From Intestinibaculum porci (GTDB taxonomy: Bacteria; Bacillota_I; Bacilli_A; Erysipelotrichales; Coprobacillaceae): DNA of 64,000 bases. The position numbers and the translations under genes are program-made. The stretch is from positions 2,232,001 through 2,296,000 of the forward strand of contig NZ_AP019309.1 of assembly GCF_003925875.1 (NCBI RefSeq), read 5' to 3'. Positions 35,876 to 48,270 of this stretch are shown piece after piece. Each line of letters opens with the position of its first letter. The first letter of the stretch is position 1. The notes below the pieces were generated by a model, which did not search any database, was not told the origin of the DNA, and was given only the letters and a program-made list of their open reading frames with translations.

Positions 35876-36832
35876 TTATTTTAATGTGTTGACCACATTA
35901 ATAGGTGCTCCTTTCTCAAAAGCATCGATATCATCTTTAATAATTGATAATAATCGCTCTCTTGTCTCTTTGCCTTTCCAGCCCATATGCGGCGTAATTA
36001 TGACATTATCTAAATCAAAAAGCGGTGAATCTGGGGATAAGGGTTCATGTTCCTGAACATCTAAGCCCGCCCCGGCAATCGTATGGGCCTTTAAAGCCTC
36101 AATCAAGGCCGCTTCATCAATGAGCGCCCCACGCGCTGTATTGATCAGAAAAGCTGAAGGCTTCATCAGAGCTAATTCTTCTTTGCCAATCATGTGATAA
36201 GTATCACCATTTAAAGCCGTATGCAAAGAAATGTAATCTGCCTGCTGTAATAATGCTTCTTTGGTGACATAGGTGACACCTTCCGTGTTTTTAGGATGAC
36301 GGGTATGCACCAGAACCTTCATGCCTAAACTTTGAGCAATGGCAATCACTTCACGGCCCGTGTGTCCTTCGCCAAAAACACCTAAGACTTTATCATTGAG
36401 TTCGACGTGAGGAACCATCAAATGCTGCGTAAAATTACGTTTATCCCCTTTCGCTAACATTTTCATCTGCACCTGCATGCTTGATGATAAATTGAGCATA
36501 AACATGATCGCTGTATGCGCCACCCGCTTGGTGGAATAAGCCGGAATATTGCAGACGGTGATCTTCTTTTCACTAGCTGCCTCTAAAGCAATATTATTAT
36601 AGCCGGTTCCTGCTTCGACGATCAGTTTGACACTTTTTGGAAACTGCATCAGCACTTCACTTGGCACGCTTAATTCCTTAGTCACAACAACCTCAGCCTC
36701 TTCAATTCGGCCTAAGATTTCCTCAGTGGACGTATCACTATAGACCGTGACCTGATCCGATAAGATCTGATAATCTAACACGCCATCAAAATTCATTTTA
36801 TCGCCATTTAAAATAACTACTTTTTTATTCAT
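35876..36832 (-). CDS. D-2-hydroxyacid dehydrogenase (glycerate/phosphoglycerate dehydrogenase-like)
   Basis: The gene encodes 318 residues. The NAD-binding GVFGEGHTGREV, catalytic Arg in NTARGALIDE, Glu in AGLDVQEHEPL and His in ITPHMGWKG are all present. No ACT domain is present, so it is a glycerate/hydroxypyruvate-type enzyme or a short SerA. A nearby DUF1015 gene, which in other Firmicutes often sits with serA/serC, leans slightly to serine metabolism. AGGAGG precedes the ATG. A structured RNA with a terminator (36884-37040) lies 52 bp upstream and could control it. Confidence 0.9.
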   Translation of the reverse strand: MNKKVVILNGDKMNFDGVLDYQILSDQVTVYSDTSTEEILGRIEEAEVVVTKELSVPSEVLMQFPKSVKLIVEAGTGYNNIALEAASEKKITVCNIPAYSTKRVAHTAIMFMLNLSSSMQVQMKMLAKGDKRNFTQHLMVPHVELNDKVLGVFGEGHTGREVIAIAQSLGMKVLVHTRHPKNTEGVTYVTKEALLQQADYISLHTALNGDTYHMIGKEELALMKPSAFLINTARGALIDEAALIEALKAHTIAGAGLDVQEHEPLSPDSPLFDLDNVIITPHMGWKGKETRERLLSIIKDDIDAFEKGAPINVVNTLK

Positions 36833-36883
36833 TGTAAAAAACCTCCTGATGCTATTTTACCACGTGCATCCTTTTGAGAATAT

Positions 36884-36907
36884 AAAAAAAGCCGCCGAAG
36901 CGACTTT
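36884..36907 (-). terminator. Terminator of the structured RNA upstream of the dehydrogenase
   Basis: The 8-bp stem AAAGTCGC/GCGGCTTT has a TTCG tetraloop (read on the minus strand) and is followed by seven T. Confidence 0.93.
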
Positions 36908-37040
36908 AGCTTTTAGGTTCTATGACAGATATGGGCTTGACGCCGCAGTTTAATAAGTAAAGGGAAGTATTAATCTTTGCACCTGTCATAGAATTGTCTC
37001 CGGGAACCGAAAACAAGTCAATGGATAATCCATTTAACGA
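36884..37040 (-). ncRNA. Candidate structured RNA or regulatory leader, family not recognised
   Basis: This non-coding stretch has its own promoter and ends in an intrinsic terminator. On the minus strand it forms in order a 5-bp hairpin (AATGG/CCATT, about 37020-37034), a perfect 10-bp hairpin (TTGTTTTCGG/CCGGAGACAA, 36994-37016), and a large arm closed by a perfect 11-bp stem (TTCTATGACAG/CTGTCATAGAA, 36918-36993) around 54 nt. The terminator (AAAGTCGC/GCGGCTTT, TTCG loop, seven T, 36884-36907) follows. I do not see a T-box, SAM, purine, TPP or lysine motif. It could be a riboswitch-like leader for the dehydrogenase or a free-standing small RNA. Confidence 0.6.
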
Positions 37041-37044
37041 CTAC

Positions 37045-37072
37045 AGTATAACACATTTTCTTAAAAAGTCAC
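37045..37072 (-). promoter_or_regulatory. Promoter of the structured RNA
   Basis: GTGACT, a 16-bp spacer and TATACT on the minus strand place transcription start near 37038-37040. Confidence 0.65.
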
Positions 37073-37111
37073 ATGTTTTATAGATTATTTTTACATTTGT
37101 TTATTTGTGAC

Positions 37112-37852
37112 CTATTTCACTTTTTCAAGCAACTTCTTAAGGGCTTTCCAGTCATCCTTAAGATGTTTGACTTTCAGCGTCTCTTTGGTCTGATCTAAGA
37201 CGCCCGCATCTTCTAAACTATCGCTGTAATCTTTATAATGAGCAATAATCCCATCGGCGGTATCTAAAATCGAATCCTTGTTGCCATCTAAAGTGGCCTG
37301 CTGCTCTTTTGTTAAACCGGTATACCATGACGTAACGGCTTTGGTTAAAGCCTTTTTATCCGCCTTCGCTAAGTTGATCTGCGCCACATACGTGAGTAAA
37401 TCGGATGCTGCTTCAACAACTTTGGTACTTGAGCCGGAATCTCCGCTATCAAAGACAATCATTTCATTGAGGATATTTTTAAGCGCTGTTTCATCAATCT
37501 TCTTTAAAGATTTGACAATCGTAAACGTCTGATGCAGCGTACCTTTATAATTTTTTAAACCTTTTATAGTGATATCAGCAGTGCCCACTTTCGTGTTATT
37601 GGAATACGTTACACGGTAATCCGTGCCTTCTTTCAACGCATCATTATCCCCGCTTGTCACCGTAACTTTTGGGGTTTTGGGTTTCCCATCATAAACATAT
37701 GTTTTTTGGGGAATGGTCACCTTAAAATTCGTCAGATCAATACTCTGATCCGCTGATTCTGTCGTTTTCACTTTTGGTTTAGGACTGCAGGCCGTGAGTG
37801 ATGTCATCATCATAACACTTAACAATGCCGCGCCCATTTTCTTTGTGAACAT
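37112..37852 (-). CDS. Lipoprotein with Ig-like (MBG/YDG-type) domain
   Basis: The gene encodes 246 residues from the ATG at 37850-37852, with GGAGGTGG 4 nt upstream; an earlier ATG lies inside that ribosome site. The signal peptide ends in a lipobox, SLTAC, so the mature protein is lipid-anchored through Cys. Residues about 45-112 form a small Ig-like domain (YVYDGKPKTPKVTV, GTDYRVTYSNN, GLKNYKGTL) common on Firmicute surface proteins. The rest is helical and of unknown function. It is transcribed alone between DUF1015 and the structured RNA. Confidence 0.85.
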   Translation of the reverse strand: MFTKKMGAALLSVMMMTSLTACSPKPKVKTTESADQSIDLTNFKVTIPQKTYVYDGKPKTPKVTVTSGDNDALKEGTDYRVTYSNNTKVGTADITIKGLKNYKGTLHQTFTIVKSLKKIDETALKNILNEMIVFDSGDSGSSTKVVEAASDLLTYVAQINLAKADKKALTKAVTSWYTGLTKEQQATLDGNKDSILDTADGIIAHYKDYSDSLEDAGVLDQTKETLKVKHLKDDWKALKKLLEKVK

Positions 37853-37901
37853 AACGCCACCTCCTATTCCCATCTTATCATTTTCACATCAAATCAGCCA
37901 T

Positions 37902-40636: not shown

Positions 40637-40870
40637 TTGACATCCTCCCACGGCTAAAGCCGTGGGATTCCTTAGAGGGCGGTTGCCATCACCACACCGT
40701 ATAGATGAAGATATAGGCCTCATGGCAGAATGGCATAAATGCTCATTCTGTACATGCGTTTTCGCTGTTCAGGATTCCTCCTCTATGGGGATTTCAAGGC
40801 GAGCCTCTAATTTCCTAGAAGAGCGGGTGATGTCTGACCCGTTTTTTTACTTTGTATCAGAACCCGAAGC
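40637..40870 (-). ncRNA. Predicted right-end omega RNA (reRNA) of the TnpB element
   Basis: The region between the tnpB stop and the right end is non-coding and rich in inverted repeats, including the terminal CCCACGGC/GCCGTGGG hairpin. TnpB guide RNAs are known to come from this position, with the guide read from host DNA past the end. The guide here would be the 16-20 bases starting GATGTGAAATGG at 40636 and running to lower coordinates. The 5' boundary is not determinable by eye and probably lies inside tnpB. Confidence 0.65.
40647..40666. repeat. IS605 right-end subterminal hairpin
   Basis: Perfect 8-bp stem with a 4-nt loop, identical in sequence to the left-end hairpin. This is the expected TnpA recognition structure in single-stranded DNA. 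Confidence 0.92.
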
Positions 40871-42375
40871 ACTGAGGCATCGAGATGTTGGTTGACTGCA
40901 TGCGTGCAATAAGCATATCCTGCACGCCTGTGAAAGAGAAGTACATCGCACTGCACATATCCCTGTCCGGCTTTTTGAGCGATGCATCAGCATGACGAAT
41001 GAGGAATGCACTGTACAGATCTCTCTGTACAGCGATCCCGGCTATCTGTTTGGAGCGCTGGCTCAGAGGCACTTTGACGTACTTGCCTGTATCATGGCAG
41101 TACTGGCTCGCTCTGAACTTCGCTGTATCTATGTATCTGACGCTGCCGCCGTAGAATGAGGCTTTTTTTTTCAAGAATGCTCATGAACAGTCCTGGTGAG
41201 CGGGAGCTAAGGCTTTTTCCAAAGCGCTTCTTGCGCCTGCACTTCCTGATCTGCTTCCGATTTCCGGCACTGTCTGTAACCTCCATAGTTCTATCAGTTG
41301 TCTCAGTCTGCTTCTTCGAGCGTCTGGCGAGTCCCTTCCAGTTCATTTTCTCGGCAATGATATCAGTGCCGGCTTCTATGATCCTGTTGGCAAGAGCACC
41401 GTGCGAACACTTTATATAGCGTGACTTGCATCCGTGCAGGTATTTGTATAAGTCCCGCAGCTTCAGATAGTTCTTCGAGAAAACCCACGGCTCACGGCAC
41501 TGCCTGTTTACTGTGCCGTCTGCGTTGTAGTGAGACGGATTGGATGCTCGCTTTGATGCGTCCATACGCCGTTGAATGTCAGACAGCTTCTTTGCATAAG
41601 CGTGTGTCCTGGGAGCCAGCTCTTCAAGCCAGGCTTCATCATCAGCCACAGCTGCAATTGTTGACACGCCCGGATCAATGCCTATTGTCCTGTTTCCAGG
41701 GATAAGCTTTTTTGGAGCATCGCCCTTCAGCGTTATAATTACGTAGTAGTGCCAGCCGTTAGGAAACATCAGTCTTGAAATCGTGCAGTATGAAATGCTG
41801 TCATTGAGAGCTTCACAGATGTATTCGGCGGAATCGGCATCCTTTGGAAGCTTCACGATTATGGTCTGCCCGTTCATTCTTACTGTGAATGATTCAGGGT
41901 CAAACACAGCACCGTTTTGCGGAGACTTTCCTTCAATGGAACTGAAATCTCTGTACTTCTTAAAGTGCACTGACTTGCCATTTTTGAAAAGATAAGCCTG
42001 AGCACTTCTGTATACGCGCGTAGCTTCCTTCTGAATCTGCTGGGATGAAAGGAGCTGTTTGAACTGCTTCGCACATACCTTGATGTATGCCTGAAGCGCA
42101 TACTCGCTTAAGCCCAGCGACTCACGAATCCCTTTCATTCCTGACGAAAGAGCCTTTTTCTGGCACTCCTCTTCTCTGGAGAGCTTCTTTCTGCCAAGCA
42201 GATCAATATAGGCTTCACGCATGTCCTGATACTCATGATTATGCTCCAGCTGGCATAGCAGCTTACGTACATGAGCAACCAGAACATTATGGATATGTGA
42301 CAGTGCATGGAAGCTCCGTTCGAGCATATCTCTCTGCTCCTTATCCGTTTCAAGCTTAAGTCTTACTGTATGCAT
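40857..42375 (-). pseudogene. tnpB: TnpB RNA-guided nuclease, split by a frameshift at an A9 tract
   Basis: The start is the ATG at 42373-42375 with AAAGGAGA upstream, overlapping tnpA by 20 bp. The first frame has the RuvC Asp in GIDPGVSTI and Glu in IIAEKMNWKG, then runs out of frame and stops at 41092. The family C-terminus (KASFYGGSVRYID, SQYCHDTGKYVKVPLSQR, VQRDLYSAFLI with the third RuvC Asp) continues one frame over from about 41172 to 40857. The switch lies at nine consecutive A (minus strand; 41163-41171). Eight A would give one intact protein of about 505 residues. It is either a mutation, a homopolymer error, or programmed slippage. TnpB acts with the right-end RNA as a guided DNA nuclease that retains the transposon. 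Confidence 0.85.
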
Positions 42376-42787
42376 GGTATTCATCTCCTTTCTGTGACCT
42401 GGTTTTCTGGGTTTCAACATACCATCTGATTGTTTCTGCACTGACATTACCTGCCGTGCTGACAAAATAGGATCTTGTCCACAGCGATGGCATAAATCGT
42501 ACTTGAGGAAATTCATTTCTTATGATGTATGAAGTGCGCCCTTTGATAAGATTCATTATTTCGGGAATGCTTATCTGTGGCAGAGCACTTAGAAACAGAT
42601 GCACATGATCAATATGGCATTCCATAGCCAGAATATCGATACCGTTTTCGGCACATACATCGCGTGTGATCTGTTTAAAACGCTCCTCAAGCTTCGGAAT
42701 CAGAAATATTCTTCTGTAGCGAGAGCAGAAAACAAAATGGTAGTTGATAAACGACACGGTTGTGGCTGTTCTTCTGTATCTGTTCAT
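42356..42787 (-). CDS. tnpA: IS200/IS605 transposase TnpA (HUH Y1)
   Basis: The gene encodes 143 residues. The HUH metal site is HIDHVHLF (H61, H63), and the nucleophile Tyr is in ETIRWYVETQ (Y123). It is of normal family length and intact. It catalyses single-strand excision and insertion at the hairpin ends. It overlaps the start of tnpB by 20 bp in another frame. Confidence 0.95.
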   Translation of the reverse strand: MNRYRRTATTVSFINYHFVFCSRYRRIFLIPKLEERFKQITRDVCAENGIDILAMECHIDHVHLFLSALPQISIPEIMNLIKGRTSYIIRNEFPQVRFMPSLWTRSYFVSTAGNVSAETIRWYVETQKTRSQKGDEYHAYSKT

Positions 42788-46527: not shown

Positions 46528-47883
46528 CTATTTAACAGGCATATACCCACCTGCATGAATAATCTTCTCTACTTTCTTAACAGGCACTGACTTCTTCGCG
46601 TCTGTCACAACATATGTGCCTTTGTTATGAACGCCCTTTGCCCTATGCTTCTCTCCGCCAATAACAACAGTATCGCCAGGACGCAGTGTATAGTGGCTTC
46701 TTCTGATCACGCGTCTGCCTTTCGAAACTTTCCGCTCTCTGAATACGCGAAGGTTCTTCTCGGAGTGTCTTGACTCGCTTCTGGCTGTGCGTCCGCATGA
46801 CAGCTCTGCACCTTTCTTTGTCTTGCCGTCTCGCGCATCAACGTATTTTGCATCAAAGAATTTTTCAAGGATGCGGTTATTCCGTCTCAGCTTCTGAAAA
46901 TGCATAAAAGGCGTCCTGCGTCTTGGATAGAATTCTCCCATGGCGTAGGAGTCATTGGCATGCGACTTTTCAAGGTGTAGGACTCTTCTTGCCTCCTGCG
47001 TAGCAGCGCCATATGTCATGTGCCATTCTAAATCAGGGTGGGTGCTTTTCAGCGTTCTGAACATCTGCCATCTGACAGCGTTCATGAAGGCTGCGCCGTT
47101 AAACGTCTTCGTCCTAGGCTTCAGGTCGTACAGCTTTCCGCCCGGCTTGTGGTTTGCCGAAGTATGGCATTTTGTGCAGACGGTCAGCAGATTGCTCATG
47201 CGGTTCGTATGATCGCCTGTTTCGAAGCCGATATGATGCACTCTCAGAATAGCGCCTTCATCCGCGGTTTCCCCGCACACCTGGCATGTGTAATTATCAC
47301 GATAGAAAACGGCTTTTCTCAGCGTGTTCATGCCGTATCGCGGCCCCTTCTGATAATCATCGCCTTTAAGCACGGTGCCTGTTGCCTCAAACTCATGCAT
47401 GGCGTGGACGTCAAACGAGCCCATTTCAAACGTGGCTGAGACTATCGGCATGACCTCAAGGAACCGCTCAAAAATACGGATATGCTGATCACGGATGTTT
47501 CTCAGCGACGGCGCCAACCATCCTTCCTTTTTGGAAGCTGTCCGATTATCAAAACGGGGCTTTCTGTAGCGAAGCCTGTTTCTTCTTGCGCGGCGCATTT
47601 TCCGACGGTCATCGTGCCGCTTCTTCTCATCCTGAAGCATGTCAAATTGGCAGTCAAAATACTCGTGTTTTTCTGATTTGATGGATACACCAATATGTTT
47701 GTATCCCGTATCGCAGCAGTACTCGATCGGCTGCATATTCTCGCTTACGATTCTTGTAAGCATGATCGTGAACGGCTTATACTTAAAGATAACAGCCTTG
47801 CCGCTTTTCAGCAGCTTTCTTGCACGGTACTCGCTTGTCGGCATCAGCAGCTTTTTATCCGGCGCTACAACGCATACGCTCAT
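46528..47883 (-). CDS. iscB: IscB RNA-guided endonuclease (Cas9 ancestor family)
   Basis: The gene encodes 451 residues, intact. The N-terminal PLMP domain is at 1-50 (LLMPTSEYRARKLLKSGKA). RuvC-I has D58 in CDTGYKHIGVS. An Arg-rich bridge helix spans about 92-110. RuvC-II has E153 in TFEMGSFD. The HNH domain has zinc pairs C200/C203 and C236/C239 and H216-H217 in LRVHHI. RuvC-III has D311 in SHANDSYAMG. A basic C-terminal PAM/TAM-interacting-like region follows. All nuclease residues are present. IscB uses the omega RNA encoded just upstream of its start to nick or cut both DNA strands at guide-matched sites. An AAAGGAGG site precedes the ATG. Confidence 0.94.
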   Translation of the reverse strand: MSVCVVAPDKKLLMPTSEYRARKLLKSGKAVIFKYKPFTIMLTRIVSENMQPIEYCCDTGYKHIGVSIKSEKHEYFDCQFDMLQDEKKRHDDRRKMRRARRNRLRYRKPRFDNRTASKKEGWLAPSLRNIRDQHIRIFERFLEVMPIVSATFEMGSFDVHAMHEFEATGTVLKGDDYQKGPRYGMNTLRKAVFYRDNYTCQVCGETADEGAILRVHHIGFETGDHTNRMSNLLTVCTKCHTSANHKPGGKLYDLKPRTKTFNGAAFMNAVRWQMFRTLKSTHPDLEWHMTYGAATQEARRVLHLEKSHANDSYAMGEFYPRRRTPFMHFQKLRRNNRILEKFFDAKYVDARDGKTKKGAELSCGRTARSESRHSEKNLRVFRERKVSKGRRVIRRSHYTLRPGDTVVIGGEKHRAKGVHNKGTYVVTDAKKSVPVKKVEKIIHAGGYMPVK

Positions 47884-47934: not shown

Positions 47935-48270
47935 TCAGCTGAGCTAAGATTGATGAATAAGTGTGCGCTTACGCACGCCTGCATACGCTTGCCAGAGGCA
48001 GTATATATGCAGCTTCTCCCTTTCGGGGTGGTTCCCATCGCCAAGGTTATCCGCAGTTGTGTATGACATGCACACTTCTCCTGCCCGTCAGAGATGTTTA
48101 ATGCATGTCCGCAGAGCGAGGGACGTGGGAAGAATCCCCTGGTGCCTGTATTTTTGCGGATAACGTAGTGCCTAAGGCACATTAGGCTAATCAGCTAGTA
48201 CGTATGTACCGACGCCAGTCTTAGGCCTGCGCGAGACAAGCCTGCAACTTCAGTCGCGGGTAGTTGACCC
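47935..48270 (-). ncRNA. Omega (HEARO) RNA of the IscB element
   Basis: This GC-rich non-coding stretch lies between the left end and iscB, the known position of omega RNA. It contains a perfect 10-bp long-range pairing (GTTATCCGCA/TGCGGATAAC; 48155-48164 with 48046-48055), a nested 8-bp pair GACATGCA/TGCATGTC, and hairpins GTGCC/GGCAC (48168-48181) and GTGCG/CGCAC. In characterised systems the guide lies 5' of this scaffold and is read from host DNA outside the left end, here the bases ending in GAAAGGAATCT(A) around 48271-48290. The exact 5' end is not visible. Confidence 0.82.
48244..48257. repeat. IscB element left-end hairpin
   Basis: 5-bp stem (one wobble) with TGAA loop on the minus strand, 13 bp inside the predicted left boundary. 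Confidence 0.8.

Follow-up and report, generated by a model that had tools for sequence, protein, structure and literature searches.

A conserved, self-terminating structured RNA of narrow distribution before a D-2-hydroxyacid dehydrogenase gene of Intestinibaculum porci: a candidate C/U-rich-loop RNA

Introduction

Does a structured RNA that is encoded directly before an enzyme gene, and that ends in a terminator of its own, control that gene or act elsewhere? This question is raised by a non-coding interval in Intestinibaculum porci, within the 64,000-nucleotide stretch of DNA analysed here (the window). An earlier note on the same DNA had described the interval as a promoter-driven structured RNA, and had offered either a terminator-type riboswitch or an independent small RNA as its explanation. 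Among 46 bona fide small RNAs of Staphylococcus aureus, 48% carry an unpaired UCCC motif (PMC5826253), and UCCC-type motifs of RsaE bind ribosome-binding sites (PMC6435200). Small RNAs seem to have received little study in the order's gut and rumen lineages; a full-text literature search for Kandleria vitulina together with small RNA returned no paper.

Results

The structured RNA (37040-36884) and the gene for the D-2-hydroxyacid dehydrogenase share the minus strand, and the RNA interval is flanked by that gene on one side and by a lipoprotein gene (37112..37873, minus strand) on the other. The predicted promoter (37045..37072, minus strand) consists of a -35-like GTGACT (37072-37067), a 16-nt spacer and an extended -10 element, TGTTATACT, in which the hexamer TATACT (37050-37045) is preceded by TG; transcription would start near 37038. 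This promoter matches at 9 of 12 positions, which taken alone is near chance (7 such sites found, 5.1 expected). Between the lipoprotein gene and the promoter, an inverted repeat GTCACA...TGTGAC (37066-37112, minus strand) overlaps the -35 element; it may be the terminator of the lipoprotein gene or an operator.

The RNA begins with a palindromic 5' hairpin, AATGGATTATCCAT (37021..37034, minus strand). We considered the palindrome ATGGATNATCCAT as the operator of a regulon and rejected this, because its other genomic copies lie inside groEL and other coding genes. The minimum free energy (MFE) fold contains a 10-bp hairpin, TTGTTTTCGG-TTC-CCGGAGACAA (36994..37016, minus strand), followed by a 76-nt arm (36918..36993, minus strand) whose 11-bp closing stem pairs 36993-36983 with 36928-36918. 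At the tip of the arm stands an apical hairpin, GATTAATACTTCCCTTTACTTATTA (36951..36975, minus strand), with the loop core TTCCCTTTACT (36966-36956, minus strand). The transcript would end at an intrinsic terminator (36884..36907, minus strand), in which a T run comes after the hairpin AAAGTCGC-TTCG-GCGGCTTT (36907-36888). Between the end of this run and the dehydrogenase ATG (36832) are 51-52 nt, in agreement with the 52 bp given in the earlier note, whose promoter, 10-bp hairpin, 11-bp closed arm of exactly 76 nt and terminator were likewise borne out by the sequence and the MFE fold.

On the minus strand, the predicted fold has an MFE of -47.8 kcal/mol (z -5.17), and none of 200 shuffled sequences folded as well; the plus strand of the same region was unremarkable (z only -1.55). 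The window RNA retained a z of -4.72 when its terminator was removed. In full-length folds the arm and the terminator coexist, and step-wise folding together with inspection gave no stable antiterminator and no structure competing with the terminator. Sequence inspection found 4-6 bp of complementarity between loop and terminator, varying by species.

RNA homologues occupy the equivalent interval in two further species: one of the same genus (genome G001, locus L002), and a more distant one from another genus (genome G009, locus L009). In all three genomes the order of features is lipoprotein gene, RNA, dehydrogenase, GNAT and sbcD, so that in G001 and G009, too, the lipoprotein gene precedes the RNA. 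The G001 RNA precedes an orthologous dehydrogenase (71% identity) and has kept the promoter, the 5' hairpin (13 of 14 nt identical), the 11-bp arm, the 25-nt apical hairpin and the terminator. Its promoter, laid out as GTGACG-16-TGCTATAAT, has the same GTGAC-16-TGnTATAAT architecture as that of the window; the inverted repeat upstream has 11-bp arms in L002 (GTCACATAAAA/TTTTATGTGAC). The apical hairpin, identical at 25 of 25 nt, is the longest stretch common to the window and L002. In pairwise alignment the arm strands were identical at 10/12 and 11/11 positions and the terminator at 18/25, and the linkers at 33-50%. The region of the 10-bp hairpin, which is absent from L002, matched in 10 of 27 columns, and the P3 branch was identical at 5 of 22. 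Without its terminator the L002 RNA is not unusually stable (z -0.69).

RNAalifold predicted 24 pairs for the window/L002 alignment. The terminator showed one compensatory pair (G-C to A-U) and one one-sided change (U-G to C-G), and the 11-bp arm one G-U exchange. By hand we found a compensatory change in the outermost arm pair (U-A in the window, A-U in L002), hidden by an alignment gap. Covariation in the 10- and 11-bp stems, which the earlier note had proposed as a check, was thus marginal: the 11-bp stem offers these two exchanges, and the 10-bp stem has no counterpart in L002. A three-way MAFFT alignment that included L009 was misaligned, and we therefore make no claim of three-sequence covariation.

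At the equivalent position in G009 we found, by eye, the promoter-like sequence TGATACAAT, followed by a hairpin, an arm and a strong terminator; the L009 RNA folds with a z of -4.0. Its apical loop contains TTCCCTTTACT, and the remainder of the RNA has diverged. The stem that closes the loop has changed from UAAUA/UAUUA to GCUC/GAGC, with the 11-nt loop core retained. The covariance-model score of L009 was only 11.8 bits (E 0.24), and its homology rests on synteny and the 11-nt match. Among 3000 shuffled G009 intergenic sequences, 53 (~1.8%) shared an 11-mer with the window interval; the 11-mer that the window and G009 share belongs to the apical loop, and the RNA that bears it is syntenic and ends in a terminator. 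In all three species UUCCCUUUACU, in the apical loop, is the sole surviving sequence. The overall fold varies, being a three-way junction in two species and a simple arm in L009. According to the predicted folds, most of the loop core is unpaired; in L002 and L009 its 3' half is weakly and partly paired. A pattern scan reported no terminators in L002 or L009; the folds show both, and the scan probably missed them because an extension of the stem absorbs the T run.

The distribution of the RNA is very narrow. A covariance model (R1) searched against 43 genomes of the family gave convincing matches only in the window genome (G000) and G001, and the weaker matches lacked the loop. A loop-plus-T-run pattern searched in 315 genomes of the order found the fold at the three known loci and at no further homologue: most other matches lay in long open frames, and two intergenic ones (L043 and L046) had no arm. 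One match in G045 (L003) sits in a surface-protein gene and is due to chance. No homologue was found among viral contigs, and in two Sharpea species the dehydrogenase (~60% identity) directly follows another ORF and the RNA is absent.

A search of Rfam gave no match at gathering score for the RNA interval, where the permissive matches are due to chance, and nothing in the homologous loci, in keeping with the statement in the earlier note that no known riboswitch signature was visible. The best sub-threshold match was to the preQ1-II riboswitch, across part of the 5' region; at 17 bits (E 2.7), against a gathering cut-off of 47 bits, we regard it as chance. The published idnO motif, some of whose members come from Erysipelotrichaceae, has a different context, being located between manX and idnO.

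The dehydrogenase (35876..36832, minus strand; 318 aa) matches PF02826 and PF00389, and scores below every NCBIfam equivalog cut-off. Its ribosome-binding site, AGGAGG, lies at 36847-36842 (minus strand). On inspection, a possible second -10 element, TGGTAAAAT (hexamer 36859-36854), stands just upstream, the two together covering 36842..36859 (minus strand). Shortly before TCAGGAGG there is a -10-like TAAAAT in the window and TACAAT in L002, which could be a separate promoter; the distance from TACAAT to the ribosome-binding site equals that in the window, and L009 has no such room. About 6 kb from this gene, on the opposite strand and beside a patatin-like ORF, lies a second D-2-hydroxyacid dehydrogenase (PF02826; 42878-43966, plus strand).

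Searching for target sites of the loop, we found no anti-loop site before a start codon, defined by the perfect core, that recurred among the three genomes. Near-matches to the 13-nt anti-loop sequence were not enriched in G000, with 158 sites against 232 for a reversed control. The target candidates lysS and some others were rejected as coding-internal, and an anti-loop site at rpsU was set aside, because Sharpea, in which we found no copy of the RNA, has it as well.

Other features were noticed in the window. An RNA of the HEARO family (RF02033, 122 bits; 48026-48268, minus strand) lies directly upstream of a 451-aa ORF (46528-47883, minus strand) that by eye has the look of an IscB-type HNH nuclease. 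An IS200/IS605-like pair (41092-42787, minus strand) comprises a Y1 transposase (PF01797; 42356-42787) and an ORF judged by eye to be TnpB-like (41092-42516); the latter lacks any Pfam match and, towards its end, where it overlaps another ORF (40857-41174), seems to be frameshifted.

Discussion

Our results show that the interval before the dehydrogenase gene encodes a real, conserved and unclassified structured RNA, predicted to be transcribed and self-terminating, of very narrow distribution. The best single reading, which we hold tentatively and at somewhat less than an even chance, is an RNA whose C/U-rich loop pairs in trans with G/A-rich sites. Such a non-coding RNA of ~150 nt would be transcribed from its own promoter and released at its intrinsic terminator; these signals, predicted from sequence, are both kept in the same-genus homologue. 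Its long hairpin arm would display the C/U-rich apical loop UUCCCUUUACU, which could base-pair with G/A-rich sequences such as the Shine-Dalgarno regions of other mRNAs. For the action of the loop, the UCCC-loop small RNAs of Firmicutes (such as RsaE/RoxS) may serve as a model by analogy. Like these, the window RNA appears to have its own promoter and an intrinsic terminator, is of similar size range, and carries a UCCC-containing, C/U-rich motif that is unpaired in a hairpin loop; the motif is conserved in the apical loops of three species. Unlike them, it has no sequence or covariance match to an Rfam small RNA and carries the conserved motif only once. The identity of the apical hairpin between the window and L002 while the linkers drift supports this reading, and fits selection for the presentation of one loop rather than of a pocket. 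The suggestion in the earlier note of an independent small RNA therefore fits better than its riboswitch alternative, but a conserved target was not found in the three genomes.

Close behind stands a strong rival, to which we assign a probability of somewhat over one third: the RNA is a cis-acting 5' leader, its promoter is the promoter of the dehydrogenase gene, the terminator attenuates, and read-through or translation is altered by a protein or RNA bound to the loop. In G009 the distance from the T run to the ATG is only 18 nt, all taken up by the region of the ribosome-binding site, which leaves no room for a separate promoter; the dehydrogenase thus seems to need read-through there, and this is the strong point of the cis alternative. 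In the window and L002, by contrast, a -10 element may follow the terminator. In 3/3 species the RNA lies upstream of the same gene, and neither Sharpea species has it, but the entire block from the lipoprotein gene to sbcD is syntenic, so that the shared position is weak evidence. Similarly, in the window and in L009 the loop is predicted to pair with the gene's own ribosome-binding site (-7.4 to -7.5 kcal/mol), yet any CUUCC loop would pair likewise with AGGAGG. The lack of an antiterminator and the short, species-dependent complementarity between loop and terminator also speak against a leader. An attenuator of a hitherto unrecognised class, in which a trans-acting RNA or protein binds the exposed UUCCCUUUACU loop to control read-through into the dehydrogenase gene, the RNA then being both leader and terminated small RNA, is unlikely, though it deserves some weight.

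We consider it improbable that the RNA serves the dehydrogenase pathway as a metabolite riboswitch. The classic order of promoter, three-way-junction-like arm, terminator and enzyme gene is present, as in terminator-type riboswitches and attenuator leaders, but the window RNA differs from these in its variable junction and in lacking a conserved aptamer core and an antiterminator. Known aptamers keep their pocket conserved, whereas here the apical loop alone is conserved: no nucleotides of junction, bulges or internal loops outside it persist, neither the P3 branch nor the 10-bp hairpin is conserved, and L009 has no three-way junction. With no Rfam match, no switchable expression platform and a fold that changes between species, the terminator-type riboswitch of the earlier note is not upheld. 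The absence of an antiterminator and of a conserved aptamer-like junction favours the C/U-rich-loop RNA over such a riboswitch. Still less probable is that the promoter, a terminator of the upstream gene and chance hairpins merely adjoin, with the RNA itself functionless. Homologues are few, and L002 without its terminator folds no better than shuffled sequences; against this, the 25-nt apical hairpin and the 11-bp arm are preserved amid drifting linkers, and z values of about -4.7 to -4.9 without the terminator were obtained in two species. The least credible proposal is a leader peptide, in which ribosomes translating a 27-codon ORF (MTGAKINTSLYLLNCGVKPISVIEPKS; 36906..36989, minus strand) would control the terminator by their position. 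This ORF, contrary to the earlier claim that there is no coding frame, has an ATG with GGAG (37001-36998) 8 nt upstream, and its stop codon overlaps the 5' arm of the terminator. However, the Shine-Dalgarno sequence is buried in the non-conserved hairpin, the equivalent ATG in L002 opens only five codons (MAGIR*), and L009 has no start in frame; since the ORF is broken in one homologue and startless in the other, it is probably not a gene, and we reject it as an explanation.

The C/U-rich-loop RNA thus remains our preferred reading, and the conserved element looks more like the loop of a UCCC-type small RNA than a metabolite pocket. With a sample of three homologues, we regard the RNA as a modest new candidate and not as a demonstrated riboswitch. 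If it is merely local to three species, its interest is modest. If confirmed, it would be a C-rich-loop regulator in gut and rumen lineages of the order for which Rfam has no existing family, and would provide a clean case for separating a leader from a small RNA.
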